A stretch of 64,000 nucleotides of DNA from Anaeromyxobacter paludicola (GTDB lineage Bacteria > Myxococcota > Myxococcia > Myxococcales > Anaeromyxobacteraceae), in the NCBI RefSeq assembly GCF_023169965.1, contig NZ_AP025592.1:310001-374000 (forward strand). The letters are read 5' to 3'. Each line of letters begins with the position of its first letter. Positions within the stretch are counted from its first letter, which is position 1. The position numbers were made by a program, and so were the translations under genes. Shown in pieces: positions 33,539 through 41,789 of this stretch. The notes under the pieces were generated by a model. It was not told the DNA's origin. It did no database searches and worked only from the letters and a program-made list of their open reading frames with translations.

Positions 33539-34564
33539 ATGCCATTCCCCCAGGAACGACCGCGCCGCCTCCGCCGCACCGAGGCCCTGCGCGGCCTGGT
33601 CCGCGAGACCACCCTCGCCCCCGACGACCTCATCCTCCCGCTCTTCGCCGCGCCCGGCCAGAAGGTCCGGCGGCCGGTCGGCAGCATGCCCGGGGTCTTC
33701 CAGCTCTCGGTGGACGAGGTGGTGGCCGAGGCGCAGGCGGCCTACGACGCGGGCGTCCGCTCCGTCATCCTCTTCGGCATCCCCACCCGCAAGGACGCCA
33801 CCGGCACCTCCGCCTGGGACGACGCCGAGCCGGTGCAGCAGGCGGTGCGCGCGCTGAAGGAGCGAGTGCCCGGCCTGGTGGTGATGACCGACGTCTGCAT
33901 GTGCGAGTACACCGACCACGGCCACTGCGGCGTGCTCAAGCCGGCCAAGGTCGGCGCCCCCGGCTCCGAGCTGGTGGTGGACAACGACGCCACCCTCGAG
34001 CTCCTGGTGAAGGAGGCGGTCTCCCACGCCCGCGCCGGCGCCGACGTGGTCGCGCCCTCCGACATGATGGACGGCCGGATCGGCGCCCTCCGGGCCGGGC
34101 TCGACCAGGCCGGCTTCGACGACGTGCCCATCATGTCCTACGCGGCGAAGTACGCCGGCGCCTTCTACGGCCCGTTCCGCGACGCCGCCGAGAGCGCGCC
34201 GGTGGCCGGCGCCGGGATCCCCAAGGACCGCAAGGGCTACCAGATGGACCCCGCCAACGCCCGCGAGGCGCTGCGCGAGGTGGCGCTCGACGTGGCCGAG
34301 GGCGCCGACATGCTGATGGTGAAGCCGGCGGTGCCGTACCTCGACGTGGTCCGCCAGATCCGCGACCGCTACGACCTGCCGCTCGCCGCGTACCACGTGT
34401 CGGGCGAGTACGCGATGATCAAGGCGGCGGCCCGGAACGGCTGGATCGACGGCGAGCGGGTGCTGCTCGAGACGCTCCTCTGCTGCCGCCGCGCCGGCGC
34501 CGACCTCATCCTCACCTACGGCGCGGTCGAGGCGGCCCGGCTCCTCACCGGCCGCCGGCCTTGA
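33539..34564 (+). CDS. hemB: Delta-aminolevulinic acid dehydratase (porphobilinogen synthase)
   Basis: 341 residues. The zinc-site cysteines are in [14 protein letters not shown], so this is the zinc-dependent type. The two active-site lysines are K204 ([16 protein letters not shown]) and K262 ([12 protein letters not shown]). It condenses two 5-aminolevulinate molecules to porphobilinogen for haem synthesis. No Shine-Dalgarno precedes ATG 33539, and a perfect dyad sits right before it. The stop overlaps the next gene (TTGA). Confidence 0.97.
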
Positions 34565-34773
34565 GCGAGCCGCTCTACAAGGTGGTGGAGGTCTCCCCGG
34601 TGACGGAGGAGAGCCTGGAGCGCGTCCTCAACGAGCGCGCCGGACAGGGCTACGGCTTCGAGTCGATCCACTTCGTCATGCGCGAGGGCTCGCACCGCCC
34701 CGCCATGGCGTACCTGTTCTTCACGCGCGGGGGCGACGAGGAGCCGGAGCCCCCCGCGCCCGCCGAGGCCTGA
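34561..34773 (+). CDS. Small conserved-looking protein (DUF4177-like)
   Basis: 70 residues: an alternating strand-helix-strand pattern ([42 protein letters not shown]) followed by an acidic/Pro tail. The length and layout resemble DUF4177 proteins, of unknown function. TTG 34561 overlaps the hemB stop (TTGA); there is no Shine-Dalgarno, so translation probably depends on hemB. It ends one base before the next gene. Confidence 0.65.
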
Positions 34774-34774
34774 G

Positions 34775-35311
34775 ATGCCCGACCCCCGCCGCGAGGGATC
34801 GCCCTACCCGAAGGCCGACCTCACGCTGCGCGGGCTCGCGCGCGCCGCCGACTTCACCCTGGCGTTCCTGGTGGCGCGGCTCGGCCACGACCACGAGCTC
34901 GGCATCCTGCTGGCGGCGCTCTACCTGCTCGCCGCCGACGGGCTCATGCACGGGCAGTCCTTCGGCAAGCGCATGTTCGGCGTGCGCGCGATGGTGGTCC
35001 CGCGCCGGGCGCCGGTCGGGTGGCGCGAGTCGTTCATCCGCAACGCGCCCTTCGCGGTGGTGGCGCTCTTCGGCGCCGCGCCGCTGCTCTGGATCGCGCT
35101 CCCGGCGGTGGCCATCGCCGTGCTCGGGTACGAGAGCTGGCGGGTGCTGCGGGATCCGCTCGGGCTCCGGCTCGGCGACGCCCTCGCCGACACGCAGGTG
35201 GTCGACGCCAAGGTGGTCTCGCGCATCGAGGTGCGGGTGCTCCCCGACCTCGGCGCCGCGGCGCCCACGCCCGAGGGGCCGTCCGCCAGCTCGGCGCGCC
35301 TGCGCCAGTAG
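34775..35311 (+). CDS. RDD family membrane protein
   Basis: 178 residues. The RDD layout is visible: LRGLARAADFTLAFLVARL with the Arg and Asp of the first helix, HGQSFGKRMFGVRAMV between helices, and further hydrophobic segments at about 88-120. The C-terminal 40 residues are soluble and Ala/Pro/Ser rich. RDD proteins are small inner-membrane proteins of mostly unknown role. It sits between hemB and the tandem ATP-grasp gene on the same strand. Confidence 0.8.
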   Translation: MPDPRREGSPYPKADLTLRGLARAADFTLAFLVARLGHDHELGILLAALYLLAADGLMHGQSFGKRMFGVRAMVVPRRAPVGWRESFIRNAPFAVVALFGAAPLLWIALPAVAIAVLGYESWRVLRDPLGLRLGDALADTQVVDAKVVSRIEVRVLPDLGAAAPTPEGPSASSARLRQ

Positions 35312-35332: not shown

Positions 35333-37456
35333 GTGCGCATCGCCCTCACCCACAACCTCCGGCTCTCCGACTCCGAGGAGGAGGCCGAGTTCGACACCCG
35401 CGAGACGGTGGAGGCGCTCGCCGGGGCCATCGAGCGGCTCGGCCACCGGGTGGAGCGGATCGAGGTCTCCGGCCCCGCCTCGCGCACCGTGGCCCGGCTC
35501 GAGGCCTACGGCCCGGACCTCATCTTCAACACCGCCGAGGGGCGGCGGGGGCGGTTCCGGGAGGCGTTCTTCCCGGGGCTCTTCGACGAGCTGGCGATGC
35601 CCTACACCGGGTCCGACGCCTACGTCCTCGCGCTCACCCTCGACAAGCAGCTCACCAAGCTCATCCTGGCGCAGCACGGGGTCACCACGCCGCGCTGGCA
35701 GTACCTCGAGGACGCCCGGCAGCTGCAGCCGAACGCGCTCCGGTTCCCGGTGATCGTGAAGCCCAACTTCGAGGGCAGCTCGAAGGGCATCACCCAGGAC
35801 TCGGTGGTGGAGGACCCGCTGGCGCTCCACCGGAGCGTCGAGGACGCCCTCGCCCGGTACCCGTCGGGCGTGCTGGTGGAGGAGTTCATCCGCGGGCGCG
35901 ACGTGACCGTGCCCTTCCTCGAGGCGGCCGCGCGGGAGCGGGGCGGGGTGCTGCAGCCGGTGGAGTACGTGGTGGACGAGGCGATCGCCGGCGCGCGCCG
36001 CCACGCCATCTACGACTACGCCCTCAAGACCGCCCTCGACCAGGCGGTCTCGGTGCGCGCGCCGGCCCGGCTCGCCCGGGCCGAGGCGCAGCGGATCCGC
36101 GACCAGGCCGAGGCCGTGGTGCGGGTGCTCGGCATCCGCGACCTCGCCCGGATGGACTTCCGCGTCGGCGACGACGGCCAGGTCCACTTCCTCGAGGTGA
36201 ACGCGCTGCCCTCGCTCGAGGCCGGCGCCTCGATCTACGCCGCGGCGGCGCTGGAGGGGCTCCACAGCGACGCCGTGCTCGGGGCGGTCATCGACAGCGC
36301 CGTGGCCCGCTGGAACATCGCCGATCCGCGCTCGCGCCGCGGCCGGCCGCGCCGGGCGGAGCGGCTCAAGGTGGGCTTCGCCTACAACGTGAAGCGGCTC
36401 ACCCCCGAGCCCTCGGGCGAGCAGGACGACGAGGCCGAGTACGACGCCCCGAAGACGCTCCAGGCCATCCGCGAGGCCATCGCGAGCTACGGCCACGAGG
36501 TGGTGGACCTCGAGGCGACGAGCGACCTGCCGCTCGTGCTCGCCTCCACGCCGGTGGACGTGGTCTTCAACATCGCCGAGGGCTTCAAGGGGCGCAACCG
36601 CGAGTCGCAGGTCCCGGCGCTGCTGGAGCTCCTCGACATCCCGTACACCGGCTCCGACCCGGCGGCGCTCTCGGTGGCCCTCGACAAGGCGCTCGCGAAG
36701 CGCATGGTGCGCGCCCACGGCATCCTCACCCCCGACTACCTCGTGATGCACAGCGGGAAGGAGCGGCTGCCCAAGGAGCTGTCCCGCTTCCCGCTCCTCG
36801 TGAAGCCGGTCGCGGAGGGCACGAGCAAGGGGGTCACGCGCAAGTCGGTGGTGCGCAACGAGGACGAGCTGCGCCAGGTCGCGCGCGAGGTGATCCAGAA
36901 GTACCGGCAGCCGGCGCTCGTGGAGCAGTACGTCGCCGGGCGCGAGTTCACGGTCGGCCTCCTCGGCGAGCGGCGGCCGCGGGTGCTGCCGCCGATGGAG
37001 ATCGTCTTCCTCGACGCCTCCGACCCGACCCCCATCTACTCCTTCGACCTCAAGCAGGACTGGAGCGACCAGCTGCGCTACGAGGTCCCGGCGCGGCTCT
37101 CGCCCCGCGAGCTGGAGCGGCTGGAGCGGGCGGCGCGCGAGGTGTTCACCGCGCTCGGCTGCCGCGACGTGGCCCGGGTGGACTTCCGCATGGACGCCGA
37201 GGGGCGGCTCTTCTTCATCGAGTCGAACCCGCTCCCGGGGCTGGCGCCCGGCTGGAGCGACCTCGTGCTCATCGCCCAGGCGGCCGGCATCGAGTACCGG
37301 GCCCTCATCGGCGAGGTGCTCTCCTTCGCCATCCGGCGCTACCAGGAGCGCGAGCGCGAGCGGGTCCGGGAGCGGCGCGCCCAGGCCGCCGCCTCGCGCG
37401 AGGGCGCCGGCGGGGCGAACGGCGTGACCGCGGCCCCCGACGGCGAGGGAGGGTAG
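35333..37456 (+). CDS. Tandem D-Ala-D-Ala-ligase-like protein (two ATP-grasp enzymes fused)
   Basis: 707 residues containing two full Ddl-type ATP-grasp units, about 1-335 and 343-690. Each has a FN(T/I)AEG...GR.RE block, a PYTGSD segment, an LDK..K lysine motif, a VKP lysine of the ATP site and a C-terminal metal motif (FLEVNALP; FIESNPLP). Both halves look catalytically intact. Family members join two amino acids, or an amino acid and a hydroxy acid, with ATP. Real Ddl is normally a single unit of about 300 residues, so this is probably not the cell-wall ligase. GTG 35333 follows a GGGGGA site. A P1 peptidase gene starts four bases after the stop. Confidence 0.85.
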   Translation: MRIALTHNLRLSDSEEEAEFDTRETVEALAGAIERLGHRVERIEVSGPASRTVARLEAYGPDLIFNTAEGRRGRFREAFFPGLFDELAMPYTGSDAYVLALTLDKQLTKLILAQHGVTTPRWQYLEDARQLQPNALRFPVIVKPNFEGSSKGITQDSVVEDPLALHRSVEDALARYPSGVLVEEFIRGRDVTVPFLEAAARERGGVLQPVEYVVDEAIAGARRHAIYDYALKTALDQAVSVRAPARLARAEAQRIRDQAEAVVRVLGIRDLARMDFRVGDDGQVHFLEVNALPSLEAGASIYAAAALEGLHSDAVLGAVIDSAVARWNIADPRSRRGRPRRAERLKVGFAYNVKRLTPEPSGEQDDEAEYDAPKTLQAIREAIASYGHEVVDLEATSDLPLVLASTPVDVVFNIAEGFKGRNRESQVPALLELLDIPYTGSDPAALSVALDKALAKRMVRAHGILTPDYLVMHSGKERLPKELSRFPLLVKPVAEGTSKGVTRKSVVRNEDELRQVAREVIQKYRQPALVEQYVAGREFTVGLLGERRPRVLPPMEIVFLDASDPTPIYSFDLKQDWSDQLRYEVPARLSPRELERLERAAREVFTALGCRDVARVDFRMDAEGRLFFIESNPLPGLAPGWSDLVLIAQAAGIEYRALIGEVLSFAIRRYQERERERVRERRAQAAASREGAGGANGVTAAPDGEGG

Positions 37457-37460
37457 GGGC

Positions 37461-38615
37461 GTGGCCGATCCCGCCCCCGCCCCGGAGCGGCGCCTCCGCG
37501 CCCGCGAGCTCGGCATCCCGCTCGGCCGCTACCGGCCGGGGCGCTTCAACGCCATCACCGACGTGGCCGGCGTGAAGGTCGGCCACTGCACCCTGGTCCA
37601 CGGCGCGGGCCCCCTGCAGCCGGGGCGCGGGCCGGTGCGCACCGGGGTCACCTGCATCCTGCCCAACCCCACCAACGTGTTCGAGGAGCGGGTGGTCGGG
37701 GGCGGCTTCATCCTCAACGGCGCCGGCGAGGTCTCCGGCCTCACCCAGCTCATGGAGTGGGGGCTCATCGAGACCCCCATCTTCCTGACCAACACCCTCT
37801 CCGTCGGGGCGGTGTCGGACGCCGCGGTGAAGTGGATGGTGGAGCGGTACCCCGGCATCGGGGGCGAGCACGACGTCATCATCCCGCTCGTGGGCGAGTG
37901 CGACGACTCGTGGCTCAACGACATCGCCGGCGGGCACGTGCACGAGGAGCACGTCCGCCAGGCCATCGAGACGGCCGCCGACGGCCCCGTGCCCGAGGGG
38001 AACGTGGGCGGCGGCACCGGCATGATCACCTGCGACTTCAAGGCCGGCATCGGCACCGCGAGCCGGAAGCTGCCGCAGGCGCTCGGCGGCTACACGGTCG
38101 GCGTGCTGGTGATGAGCAACTTCGGCGTGATGCGGCAGCTCCGCGTGGGCGGGCTCCCGGTGGGGGAGCTGCTCGAGCCGCGGTACGCCAGCCTGCCCCG
38201 GCGCGTGAACAACTACGGCTCGATCATCGCGGTGGTCGCCACCGACGCGCCGCTCATCACCCACCAGCTCAACCGGCTCGCCAAGCGGGCGGCGCTCGGG
38301 GTGGGGCGGGTCGGCTCCTCGGCCATGCACGGCTCGGGGGAGATCATGCTGGCGTTCTCCACCGCCAACATGGTGCCGCGGCAGACGCGCAAGATGGTCT
38401 ACCGGGTGAAGATCCTGCTCGACCAGCGGCTCGATCCGCTCTACGAGGCGGTGATCGAGGCCACCGAGGAGGCGATCCTGAACGCGCTCTGCATGGCCGA
38501 GGACATGGAGGGCGTGAACGGCAACCTCTCGCGGGCGCTCCCGCTGCACGAGGTGCGCGCGATGGCCTCCCACTGGCAGCGGCTCGTCGCCGGCGGGCGG
38601 CGCGGCCAGGATTAG
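37461..38615 (+). CDS. P1 family (DmpA-type) self-processing aminopeptidase
   Basis: 384 residues. NAITDVAGVKVGHCTL at the start, VGGGTGMITCDFKAGIGTASR and NNYGSIIAVVATDAPL are the DmpA/BapA family landmarks. S254, following the glycine in NYGSII, is the expected autoproteolysis site and nucleophile of the beta subunit. The family cleaves N-terminal residues from D- or beta-amino acid amides and peptides. It is four bases after the tandem ATP-grasp gene, so a make-and-break partnership on unusual dipeptides is conceivable (inference). Confidence 0.9.
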   Translation: MADPAPAPERRLRARELGIPLGRYRPGRFNAITDVAGVKVGHCTLVHGAGPLQPGRGPVRTGVTCILPNPTNVFEERVVGGGFILNGAGEVSGLTQLMEWGLIETPIFLTNTLSVGAVSDAAVKWMVERYPGIGGEHDVIIPLVGECDDSWLNDIAGGHVHEEHVRQAIETAADGPVPEGNVGGGTGMITCDFKAGIGTASRKLPQALGGYTVGVLVMSNFGVMRQLRVGGLPVGELLEPRYASLPRRVNNYGSIIAVVATDAPLITHQLNRLAKRAALGVGRVGSSAMHGSGEIMLAFSTANMVPRQTRKMVYRVKILLDQRLDPLYEAVIEATEEAILNALCMAEDMEGVNGNLSRALPLHEVRAMASHWQRLVAGGRRGQD

Positions 38616-38888: not shown

Positions 38889-38964
<76 letters not shown>

Positions 38965-39040: not shown

Positions 39041-40309
39041 ATGACCGCGCCGCGCCTCCTGCTCCTCGCCCCCACCCAGAGCTACCGCACCGACGACTTC
39101 CTCGCGGCCGCCGCCCGCCTCGGCGTGCCGGTGGTGGTGGGGACGGATCGCTGCCACCGGATCGAGGAGACCTTCGGGGAGGAGCAGGGGCTCTGGTCGC
39201 TCGACTACCGGAAGCCGGAGCACGCGGCCGAGCAGATCGCGGCGGCGGCGCGGCAGGAGCCCATCGCCGGCATCGTGCCGGTGAACGAGACCACGGCCGT
39301 CATCGCCGCCCTGGCGGCGGAGCGGCTCGGGCTCCCCTGGAACCCGCCCGACGCGGCGCTCCGGGCCGCCGACAAGGCGGCGCAGCGGACCCGGCTGGCC
39401 GAGGCCGGGCTGCCCGTCCCGGCCTTCCGCGCCTTCCGGCTCGACGGCGACCCCGAGGCGGCCGCGGCGTCGGTGACTTACCCGTGCGTCCTCAAGCCGG
39501 TGGTGCTGTCGGCGAGCCGCGGCGTCATCCGGGCCGACGACCCGGCCGGCTTCGTCGCCGCCTGGCGGCGCATCGAGCGGATCCTGCGGGAGGCCCGGAC
39601 CGAGCGGCGGGCCGCCGGCGCCGAGGCGGCGCGCACCGTGCTCGTGGAGGCGTTCGTCCCCGGGGCGGAGGTGGCGGTCGAGGGGCTCCTGCGCGGCGGC
39701 GCCTTCGAGCTGCTCGCGCTCTTCGACAAGCCCGATCCGCTCGACGGTCCCTACTTCGAGGAGACGCTCTACGTCACCCCGTCGCGCCACCCGGCCCCGC
39801 TCCAGCGGGAGATCGCCCGGCTCACCGGCGAGGCCTGCCGCGCGCTCGGGCTCAGGGAGGGGCCGGTCCACGCCGAGCTGCGGCTCCCGCCCGCCGGGCC
39901 GGTGATCCTCGAGGTGGCCGCCCGCTCCATCGGCGGCCTCTGCGCCCGCACGCTCCGGTTCGGGGCGGGCATCTCGCTCGAGGAGCTCCTGGTGTGCCAC
40001 GCGCTCCGGCTGCCGCTCGCGTCGCTGCAGCGGGAGCGTCGCGCCGCCGGGGTGATGATGATCCCCATCCCGCGCGCCGGGATCCTGCACGGCGTCGGCG
40101 GGCTCGACGAGGCGAAGGCGGTGCCGGGGGTGGAGGACGTGGTGGTCACCGCGCAGGAGGGGCGCGAGGTGGCGCCGCTCCCGGAGGGCGACTGCTACTT
40201 CGGCTTCATCTTCGCGCGCGGGGAGGCGCCGGCCGAGGTGGAGGCGGCGCTGCGGGCCGCCCACGCGCGGCTGCGCATCGACATCCGCGCGCCGCTGCCC
40301 ATGGTGTGA
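39041..40309 (+). CDS. ATP-grasp ligase, L-amino acid ligase/carboxylase-like
   Basis: 422 residues: an N-terminal Rossmann-like domain (LLLLAPTQSYRTDDFLAAA), then an ATP-grasp domain with YPCVLKPVVLSASRGV and the metal-binding EVAARSIGG, and a C-terminal domain like that of amino acid ligases (AAGVMMIPIPRAGILHGVGG). It would form an amide or peptide bond with ATP. The substrate is unknown. ATG 39041 lies just beyond the tRNA terminator. It converges on the radical SAM gene. Confidence 0.82.
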   Translation: MTAPRLLLLAPTQSYRTDDFLAAAARLGVPVVVGTDRCHRIEETFGEEQGLWSLDYRKPEHAAEQIAAAARQEPIAGIVPVNETTAVIAALAAERLGLPWNPPDAALRAADKAAQRTRLAEAGLPVPAFRAFRLDGDPEAAAASVTYPCVLKPVVLSASRGVIRADDPAGFVAAWRRIERILREARTERRAAGAEAARTVLVEAFVPGAEVAVEGLLRGGAFELLALFDKPDPLDGPYFEETLYVTPSRHPAPLQREIARLTGEACRALGLREGPVHAELRLPPAGPVILEVAARSIGGLCARTLRFGAGISLEELLVCHALRLPLASLQRERRAAGVMMIPIPRAGILHGVGGLDEAKAVPGVEDVVVTAQEGREVAPLPEGDCYFGFIFARGEAPAEVEAALRAAHARLRIDIRAPLPMV

Positions 40310-40341: not shown

Positions 40342-40389
40342 AGAGGACCCGGACCCGACCGTGCATCCGCGCTCTCTCAGCCCTTCGTC

Positions 40390-40422
40390 AGCGGAGCCAA
40401 CTGGCCCGCGGTCGGCTCCGCT
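40390..40422 (-). terminator. Hairpin between convergent ATP-grasp and radical SAM genes
   Basis: AGCGGAGCC (40390-40398) pairs with GGCTCCGCT (40414-40422): a perfect nine-base stem that touches the stop of the radical SAM gene. No T-tract follows on either strand, so termination is only likely, not certain. Confidence 0.4.
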
Positions 40423-41789
40423 CAGCAGAACCAGCTCTCGGTGAGCCGGGGCGTGAAGCGCCGGTCCCGGGCCCGCGTCACGTGCTGGTGGACCCGCCCG
40501 GCCGCCGCCAGCGCGAGCGCCTTCACCGCCGCCACGGTCTCGAGCGGATCGGCGCCGGCCGCGGCCCGCTCCTCCACGAGGCCGGCGACCTTCGCCTGGA
40601 GCGCGTCCATGCGCGGGTCGGGGTGGGCCCAGCGGAAGGTGAGGGCGGCGGGGTCGAGCGCCGCGCCGGCGAAGGCGGGGTCGCGCAGCAGGAGCGAGCC
40701 GGGCGGGACCAGGAGCCGGATCGAGAGCTGCACCGGATCGAGCTGCGGCAGCCAGCCGCGCTCCTCGAACGTCTGGAGGAGGTCGAGGTAGTCCTCGAGG
40801 GTGGACCAGGGGGTGAACGGGAGCAGCGAGGGGCGCAGCGCGACGCCCGTCTCCGCGCAGAGCTCGAAGGCGCGCAGCGCGTCGGCGCGGGTGTGCCCCT
40901 TGTCGAGCTTCGCGAGCACCCGGTCGGAGAGCGACTCCACCGCCGAGGTCACGAAGAGCGCCCCGAGGGCCCCGAGCTCGGCCACGAGGAGCGGGCGGCG
41001 CAGCAGGTGCTCCACCTTGGCGGTGTAGTCGAAGGTGACCGCCGGGAAGCGGGCGTGGAGCGCGCGGGCCACCCTCAGGGCGTGGCCCGGGCCGTTCAGG
41101 AAGTCCGGATCGCCGAAGGTCACATGGGTCGCGCCGGCCGCCACGAGCTGGGCCACGTCGGCGAGGACCGCCTCCACCGGGACCACGAAGAGCCGGCCGC
41201 CGTAGAGCGGGGGGATGGGGCAGTGGCGGCAGCGGTGGAGGCAGCCGCGCGTCGCCTCGGCGTACCCGGCCACCCGGAGCCCGCGCGCGTCCTGGAGGTG
41301 GGCGTAGCGCTCGAGCGGGGGGAGGCCTTCGCGCGAGGGGACGGGGAAGTCCAGCCGCCGCAGCGTCGCCGCTCCGGCGCCGTCCTGGACGAAGCGCGAG
41401 AGGTCCTCGCCGCGCTCGGCCGCCTCGGCGAGCCGCACCAGCTCCTCCTCGCACTCGCCGCCCAGCACCGCGGCCGCCCCGGCGGCGCGCAGGAGCGCCG
41501 CGTGCAGCGGGGCGTAGAGCCCGTGGAAGACGACGAGGGCGGCCGGGTTGAGGGCGCGCACCCGCGCCGCGGCGGCGAGCGCCAGCTTGAGCGCGGTGTG
41601 CATCGGGACCGCGAACGCGACGAGCCGCGCGCGGCGGACCGCGGCCTCGTCGAGCGGCTCCAGCGACAGGTCGAGGGCCGCCGGCCGGAAGCCCGCGCGC
41701 GCCAGGAAGGCGCGCGGCAGGGCGAGGCCGAGCGGCTGGTGCCCGAGCTCGTACGTCGAGAGGAGGAGGATGTCGCCGTCGGCGCGCAT
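40422..41789 (-). CDS. Radical SAM protein with N-terminal B12-binding-like domain
   Basis: 455 residues. The [4Fe-4S] cysteines are C183, C187 and C190 (TRGCLHRCRHC), in the CxxxCxxC arrangement. The N-terminal 170 residues have the alternating strand pattern of a cobalamin-binding domain but lack the DxHxxG histidine motif, so B12 would bind base-off without it or not at all. FGDPDFLNG and LFVTSAVESLSD are typical of the B12-radical SAM (methylthiotransferase/Elp3-like) relatives. Substrate unknown. Start ATG 41789, 12 bases after the yggX stop on the same strand. Confidence 0.82.
   Translation of the reverse strand: MRADGDILLLSTYELGHQPLGLALPRAFLARAGFRPAALDLSLEPLDEAAVRRARLVAFAVPMHTALKLALAAAARVRALNPAALVVFHGLYAPLHAALLRAAGAAAVLGGECEEELVRLAEAAERGEDLSRFVQDGAGAATLRRLDFPVPSREGLPPLERYAHLQDARGLRVAGYAEATRGCLHRCRHCPIPPLYGGRLFVVPVEAVLADVAQLVAAGATHVTFGDPDFLNGPGHALRVARALHARFPAVTFDYTAKVEHLLRRPLLVAELGALGALFVTSAVESLSDRVLAKLDKGHTRADALRAFELCAETGVALRPSLLPFTPWSTLEDYLDLLQTFEERGWLPQLDPVQLSIRLLVPPGSLLLRDPAFAGAALDPAALTFRWAHPDPRMDALQAKVAGLVEERAAAGADPLETVAAVKALALAAAGRVHQHVTRARDRRFTPRLTESWFC

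Follow-up and report, generated by a model that had tools for sequence, protein, structure and literature searches.

The 64,000-nucleotide window analyzed here (Anaeromyxobacter paludicola, contig NZ_AP025592.1, positions 310,001 to 374,000; coordinates below are counted from its first letter) carries, on the forward strand, a tandem Ddl-fold ATP-grasp ligase of 707 amino acids with a GTG start (35333..37456; Pfam, AlphaFold2 and alignment), and a P1/DmpA-type aminopeptidase of MEROPS family S58 with 384 amino acids and likewise a GTG start (37461..38615; Pfam and alignment). In the open reading frames (ORFs) of the window, four bases separate the ligase stop codon from the P1 start, the spacing that a first-pass annotation of this DNA had given, and a PF03576 match bears out the enzyme class it had named. 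By alignment and by the domain tree described below, the ligase is divided on the same strand into half 1 (H1, approximately residues 1-331; 35333..36325), with the motifs EAEFD, FNTAEGRRGRFREAF, VKPNFEGSSKG, RMDFR and EVNALPS, and half 2 (H2, approximately residues 344-673; 36362..37351), with the motifs EAEYD, FNIAEGFKGRNRE, VKPVAEGTSKG, RVDFR and ESNPLPG. The halves are joined by a linker (approximately residues 332-343; 36326..36361, forward strand) that has low confidence in the AlphaFold2 model (predicted local distance difference test score, pLDDT, ~40).

The first-pass annotation had described the ligase as a fusion of two complete Ddl-like ATP-grasp units, and this description holds. 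The Dala_Dala_lig_C domain (PF07478) matches the protein twice. The AlphaFold2 model of the whole protein had a mean pLDDT of 87.7 and a predicted template modelling score (pTM) of 0.51, so that how the two halves sit relative to each other is uncertain. Residues 1-328 of the model superimposed on a Thermus Ddl (Z 32.5, 296 residues, 2.4 Å) and residues 341-668 on Pseudomonas DdlB (Z 34.2, 297 residues, 2.3 Å); the rows returned from the structure library were mostly half 2, with half 1 in fewer rows at similar Z. As modelled, the tandem ligase is two complete Ddl folds in one chain. The ATP-grasp residues K105/K452, K143/K491, E147/E495, K232/K574, R273/R615, D275/D617, E288/E630 and N290/N632 (H1/H2) do not vary among 31 tandem relatives with identities as low as 55%. 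Neither half therefore lacks its ATP-grasp residues, and a degenerate half 1 or half 2 was ruled out by these residues together with the fold; from residue conservation and predicted fold, both halves look active.

The P1 protein contains a full-length Peptidase_S58 domain (PF03576, 395 bits, residues 30-355) and aligns over its whole length with PH0078 (2DRH, 334 bits), DmpA (1B65, 266 bits) and BapA (244 bits). Gly253-Ser254 (GGC TCG, 38217..38222, forward strand, within NNYGSIIAVVATDAPL), the self-processing site predicted by sequence and alignment, corresponds to the processing site of DmpA, with Ser254 matching DmpA Ser250. E146, N220, S254, S292 and G293 match DmpA Glu144, Asn218, Ser250, Ser288 and Gly289, which are listed as active-site residues (PMC9570944), and G253-S254, E146, N220, S292 and G293 are invariant in 16 ligase-linked P1s. 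Gln216 and Tyr146 of DmpA are not kept in the window P1, where they are Met and Asp, respectively. Tyr146 is reported to be substituted in most of the sequences compared in PMC9570944 and so does not define the family; the two changes were not taken to exclude membership of S58. DmpA and BapA hydrolyze carnosine-type beta-aminoacyl dipeptides, and S58 enzymes also form beta-alanyl dipeptides (PMC9235088). No signal peptide was apparent on P1 when the sequence was read by eye, suggesting that P1 is probably cytoplasmic. In two peatland metagenome-assembled genomes (L110:4931-5804 and L112:5414-6438), P1 is apparently split over two frames or pieces, through frameshift, decay or assembly error.

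Conservation of the pair, the check that the first-pass annotation had proposed, was found in three phyla, both as joint presence and absence and as adjacency. Among 156 Myxococcota genomes, where a P1 ortholog was counted at a score above 430 bits, a limit chosen since weaker paralogs exist, 114 had the tandem ligase and P1, 2 the tandem ligase only, 1 P1 only, and 39 neither (Fisher P 3e-33; shared ancestry is ignored in this and all following tests). The pair occurs in Myxococcus xanthus (L062), for example, and both genes are absent from genera g5 and g6, which belong to the same family as the source genome of the window, from a small-genome genus (g39) and from genome G128. In Bdellovibrionota (192 genomes), P1 was present in 31/31 genomes with the tandem ligase or its half-2 form (G240) and in 6/161 genomes without the tandem (table 31/0/6/155, Fisher P 4e-30), and in the Elusimicrobiota-labelled set it was present in 2/2 tandem genomes (table 2/0/2/116, Fisher P 8e-4). 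A P1 gene accompanies the ligase in 91 of the 112 loci: in 90 it lies downstream in the same orientation, and in the remaining one (L105) it is beside the ligase on the opposite strand. The two genes overlap or are separated by at most 20 bases in 45 of the 81 measurable loci, and P1 lies 2-8 kb from the ligase in 15 loci, mostly Myxococcaceae. We regard it as almost certain that the ligase and P1 are functionally coupled. Both parts belong to known families; the pairing itself appears undescribed, and a limited literature search found no paper on a tandem Ddl/P1 pair.

The fusion appears to have arisen once. Ninety domains were placed in a tree (IQ-TREE, LG+C20), with the genome's own Ddl (L115) as the sole row taken as a canonical Ddl reference and with long branches for some other rows. 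All 28 H1 domains formed one clade (support 100/100), the H2 domains formed another together with three single-domain genes (support 100/90), and L115 fell elsewhere, apart from both. The single-domain relatives nearest the tandem form a clade with support 89/91. The simplest reading is a single fusion event that preceded the spread of the tandem gene through Myxococcota, Bdellovibrionota and the two Elusimicrobiota-labelled genomes. The half-2 form in G240 (L157:6979-10773, reverse strand) consists of a half-2 unit only, overlapping P1, with a transposase-like gene just upstream, and possibly arose by deletion of half 1.

Neither half is a canonical Ddl, as judged from changed landmarks of the D-Ala site. 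In the alignment with L115, a canonical Ddl encoded at a separate site of the genome, FNxAEG takes the place of the Ddl HG motif in both halves. The Ser281 region contains an indel and is not counted among the changed landmarks. The residue after the catalytic Lys (Lys215-Tyr216 in DdlB, where Tyr216 shapes the choice between D-Ala and D-Lac) is Thr233 in H1 and Gln575 in H2. We consider it likely that the tandem ligase is not a D-Ala:D-Ala ligase. The whole tandem protein nevertheless passes the NCBIfam cut-offs of PRK01372 (314 vs 243) and TIGR01205 (270 vs 245.65), and single-domain relatives score 91-152 against the cut-off of 243. NCBIfam labels the protein as Ddl because the whole-protein score, spanning two stretches, exceeds the cut-off, which makes for an annotation trap: a Ddl cut-off is passed by a two-half score in a protein that is probably no Ddl.

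The single-domain relatives give a lead to the substrate through lysine 2,3-aminomutase (KamA), an enzyme that makes a beta-amino acid. Three Polyangiales genomes each carry a KamA gene followed directly by two unfused ligase genes; with the lysine 2,3-aminomutase model (cut-off 525), these KamAs score 477-492 bits. In Elusimicrobiota, KamA adjoins the single ligase in 5 of 14 loci, and KamA scores above the family cut-off in 14/14 single-ligase genomes vs 14/106 others (P 6e-11); P1, the partner of the tandem ligases, occurs in 1/14 of these single-ligase genomes. Over their full length, the KamAs of L117 and L191 can be aligned with the lysine 2,3-aminomutase 2A5H, and they keep Asp293, Asp330 and Lys337, of which Asp293 and Asp330 bind the lysine side chain. 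On plasmids of Thioflavicoccus and Bradyrhizobium, KamA again lies beside single ligases, which are more distant relatives; the rhizobial-plasmid ATP-grasp proteins, as long-branch relatives in mixed contexts, add little. Given this coupling of the single-domain relatives to KamA, a beta-amino acid, for example beta-lysine, is probably a substrate for the ligases of the branch. A search of titles and abstracts returned no paper linking KamA with an ATP-grasp ligase in this way. The window contains no KamA gene; the genome has two divergent adjacent KamA genes (L201:4775-7362) ~156 kb from the pair. The Thioflavicoccus plasmid cluster (L182:4587-10068) encodes a diaminobutyrate transaminase, an SbnA-like diaminopropionate synthase, an ornithine cyclodeaminase, a Ddl-like ATP-grasp protein and KamA, and may represent an undescribed pathway for a small peptide or an amino acid. 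The Bradyrhizobium plasmid operon (L183:4282-9047) encodes a lysine 2,3-aminomutase-like protein, a gamma-glutamyltransferase, a seven-transmembrane (7TM) protein and an ATP-grasp ligase.

We propose that the tandem ligase and P1 form an obligate make-and-break module for a short peptide with an unusual amino acid, and assign this reading a probability of about 0.5. The ligase would spend ATP at its two Ddl-type sites, via acyl-phosphates, to join small amino-acid substrates other than D-Ala and D-Ala through one or two amide bonds; one substrate would most likely be a beta-amino acid or some other unusual amino acid. P1, translated together with the ligase, would self-process at Gly253-Ser254 and remove the N-terminal residue from the ligase product, thereby controlling the pool or returning building blocks. 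That P1 acts on the ligase product seems fairly likely to us, and that the product of the window pair holds a beta-amino acid is put forward more tentatively; the KamA coupling of the single-domain relatives and the known action of S58 enzymes as beta-aminopeptidases together favor an unusual, probably beta-linked, amino acid in the peptide. Its biological role might be that of an osmolyte, a storage compound or a metabolite. A more far-reaching version, which we consider doubtful, is an undescribed widespread bacterial metabolite, a short peptide containing a beta-amino acid (possibly beta-lysine) that the double ATP-grasp ligase builds and a dedicated S58 beta-aminopeptidase turns over; the S58 family would then have a physiological substrate. 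The first-pass annotation had hinted at a small system for the synthesis and recycling of an unusual di- or tripeptide; strict co-occurrence and adjacency in three phyla support this, but the third ligase that it had brought into the system is no member. To our knowledge, little has been established about what S58/P1 aminopeptidases act on in nature, though the enzymes are used to produce carnosine and beta-peptides. A ligase coupled to one P1 lineage across three phyla offers a concrete route to such a substrate.

Several observations weigh against the make-and-break module. Two Myxococcota genomes have the tandem ligase without a P1 ortholog (G028 and G156) and one has P1 without the tandem (G098), although G156 may be no exception, since a P1 fragment lies at the contig end directly after its tandem gene (L126). 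P1 was not within the 3-8 kb downstream stretch examined in 8 loci. S58 enzymes such as DmpA also cleave L- and D-alpha-aminoacyl amides. The tandem gene adjoins KamA in one lineage only, where KamA lies divergently beside it in three closely related loci of the Sandaracinaceae group, and P1 was not seen near the tandem genes there, with enough downstream DNA only in L099. KamA has no match in the tandem and P1-containing genomes G192, G221 and G344, and only matches below the cut-off in G167 and G449. Moreover, KamA occurs in 152/156 Myxococcota genomes, so that co-presence there says nothing; KamA presence or absence was dropped as a test in Myxococcota and Bdellovibrionota, being nearly universal.

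Other explanations were weighed as well. The ligase might join ordinary alpha-amino acids into an L-alpha di- or tripeptide or an amino-acid amide, a compatible solute or storage compound with P1 as its aminopeptidase, which would suit both the action of DmpA-type enzymes on L-aminoacyl amides and the tandem and P1-containing genomes in which KamA was not found. The osmolyte operon for N-acetylglutaminylglutamine amide (NAGGN), encoding a dipeptide synthase and an aminopeptidase, provides a precedent (PMC8070244). We consider this rather unlikely, since the nearest single-domain ligases are tied to an aminomutase, which argues for a beta-amino-acid substrate in the branch. Alternatively, P1 would act before the ligase: it would break down peptides or amides to supply the ligase with an unusual amino acid, in the position that KamA has beside the single-domain ligases. 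The near-complementary partners (single ligases with KamA in 14/14 and P1 in 1/14 genomes, tandem ligases with P1) fit such an order of events; however, KamA is also present in most Bdellovibrionota genomes with the tandem and P1, and no uptake gene was seen recurring next to the pair in the compared loci, making it quite improbable.

Modification of cell-wall precursors, which the first-pass annotation had also suggested, fared poorly. The ligase would make a D-Ala-D-X terminus or a D-dipeptide for peptidoglycan in the manner of Van-type ligases or Ddl isozymes, and P1 would remove D-aminoacyl products. Ddl and Van ligases are the closest matches of both halves by sequence and by fold, and some S58 enzymes carry a D-aminopeptidase annotation, yet the changed Tyr216 position and the FNxAEG motif in both halves, the canonical Ddl elsewhere in the genome, the grouping of the halves apart from it in the tree and the lack of an obvious signal peptide on P1 all speak against this, and next to the pair no recurrent mur, van or penicillin-binding-protein gene was noticed; we give the cell wall a small chance. 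A linkage without a common substrate, of two housekeeping-like genes in an old neighborhood, could draw on the synteny of ALAD, DUF, RDD and ligase genes over much of Myxococcota, where some gene order is simply old. It is hardly plausible given that exactly these two genes are jointly present or absent in three phyla and that their frames overlap where the other neighbors differ.

The genes upstream of the pair (33542..35311, forward strand; Pfam and locus comparison) encode ALAD, a small domain-of-unknown-function (DUF) protein, with 68 amino acids and no Pfam match, and an RDD-like membrane protein. This block is syntenic with the tandem ligase over much of Myxococcota and is not beside the ligase in the distant Myxococcota and Bdellovibrionota loci, indicating that these genes are neighbors, not parts of the module. 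Downstream of P1, a small basic ORF and a tRNA (38889-38961) are followed by an L-amino-acid-ligase-type ATP-grasp protein (39041..40309, forward strand; Pfam and locus comparison). This third ATP-grasp ligase is present as the first-pass annotation had noted; its ATP-grasp_4 and LAL_C2 domains place it in a different family from the tandem halves, and of the loci compared, only one from the same genus (L035) has it next to the pair, which ruled it out as a member of the system. Extra ligases from different families recur adjoining the pair: a glutathione-synthetase-like ATP-grasp gene follows P1 in peatland Myxococcales (L101:11567-12628, forward strand, and similar loci), and an additional Ddl-like gene precedes the tandem gene in L124. 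The recurring neighbors of the more distant ligase genes (response regulator, GGDEF, NTP transferase, ABC ATPase and trypsin-like protease; in Elusimicrobiota, NusA/IF-2 and Lon/ClpX/trigger factor) were set aside as lineage-specific or housekeeping genes that give no functional lead.

Further downstream, a radical S-adenosylmethionine (SAM) gene (40374-41786, reverse strand) matches NF040546 (CUAEP/CCAEP-tail (seleno)protein) with 645 bits. Its ORF ends ...TESWFC at an in-frame TGA, and readthrough with selenocysteine (Sec) would give CUAEPTAGQLAPLTKG before the next TGA. A 12-bp stem-loop after the first TGA is a candidate selenocysteine insertion sequence (SECIS), with a fold z-score of only -1.07 and no Rfam match at the gathering threshold. 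Given the in-frame TGA, the CUAEP tail and the stem-loop, the gene probably encodes a selenoprotein that standard gene calling truncates.

Compared with known systems, the tandem ligase shares with Ddl (EC 6.3.2.4) and Van ligases the fold and, in both halves, the ATP/Mg-binding residues, but differs in having two units per chain, FNxAEG in place of HG, no Tyr at the 216 position, strict coupling to P1 and a gene separate from the genome's own Ddl. Cyanophycin metabolism likewise places a two-site ATP-dependent peptide synthetase (CphA, an ATP-grasp and a Mur-ligase domain) beside a dedicated hydrolase (CphB, family S51), but no relation to the pair was detected beyond the ATP-grasp fold. With the AblA/KamA systems, the likeness lies in the single-domain relatives adjoining KamA genes close to lysine 2,3-aminomutase; KamA is not beside the window pair. 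P1 shares full-length homology, the Gly-Ser processing site and the five active-site equivalents with DmpA, BapA and PH0078 (2DRH), and differs from DmpA in Met for Gln216, Asp for Tyr146 and the genomic tie to a ligase. The carnosine synthase ATPGD1 is an animal enzyme of another ATP-grasp subfamily and, unlike the ligase here, is not paired with an S58 enzyme. It nevertheless sets a precedent, being an ATP-grasp enzyme that makes a beta-aminoacyl dipeptide (PMC3407494), of the kind that carnosine-cleaving S58 enzymes hydrolyze (PMC9235088). The NAGGN operon also encodes a peptide synthase with an aminopeptidase (PMC8070244), but its ligase and peptidase come from other families. By analogy, the pair would work like the make-and-break peptide systems of the NAGGN operon, cyanophycin and carnosine, yet it belongs to none of them.

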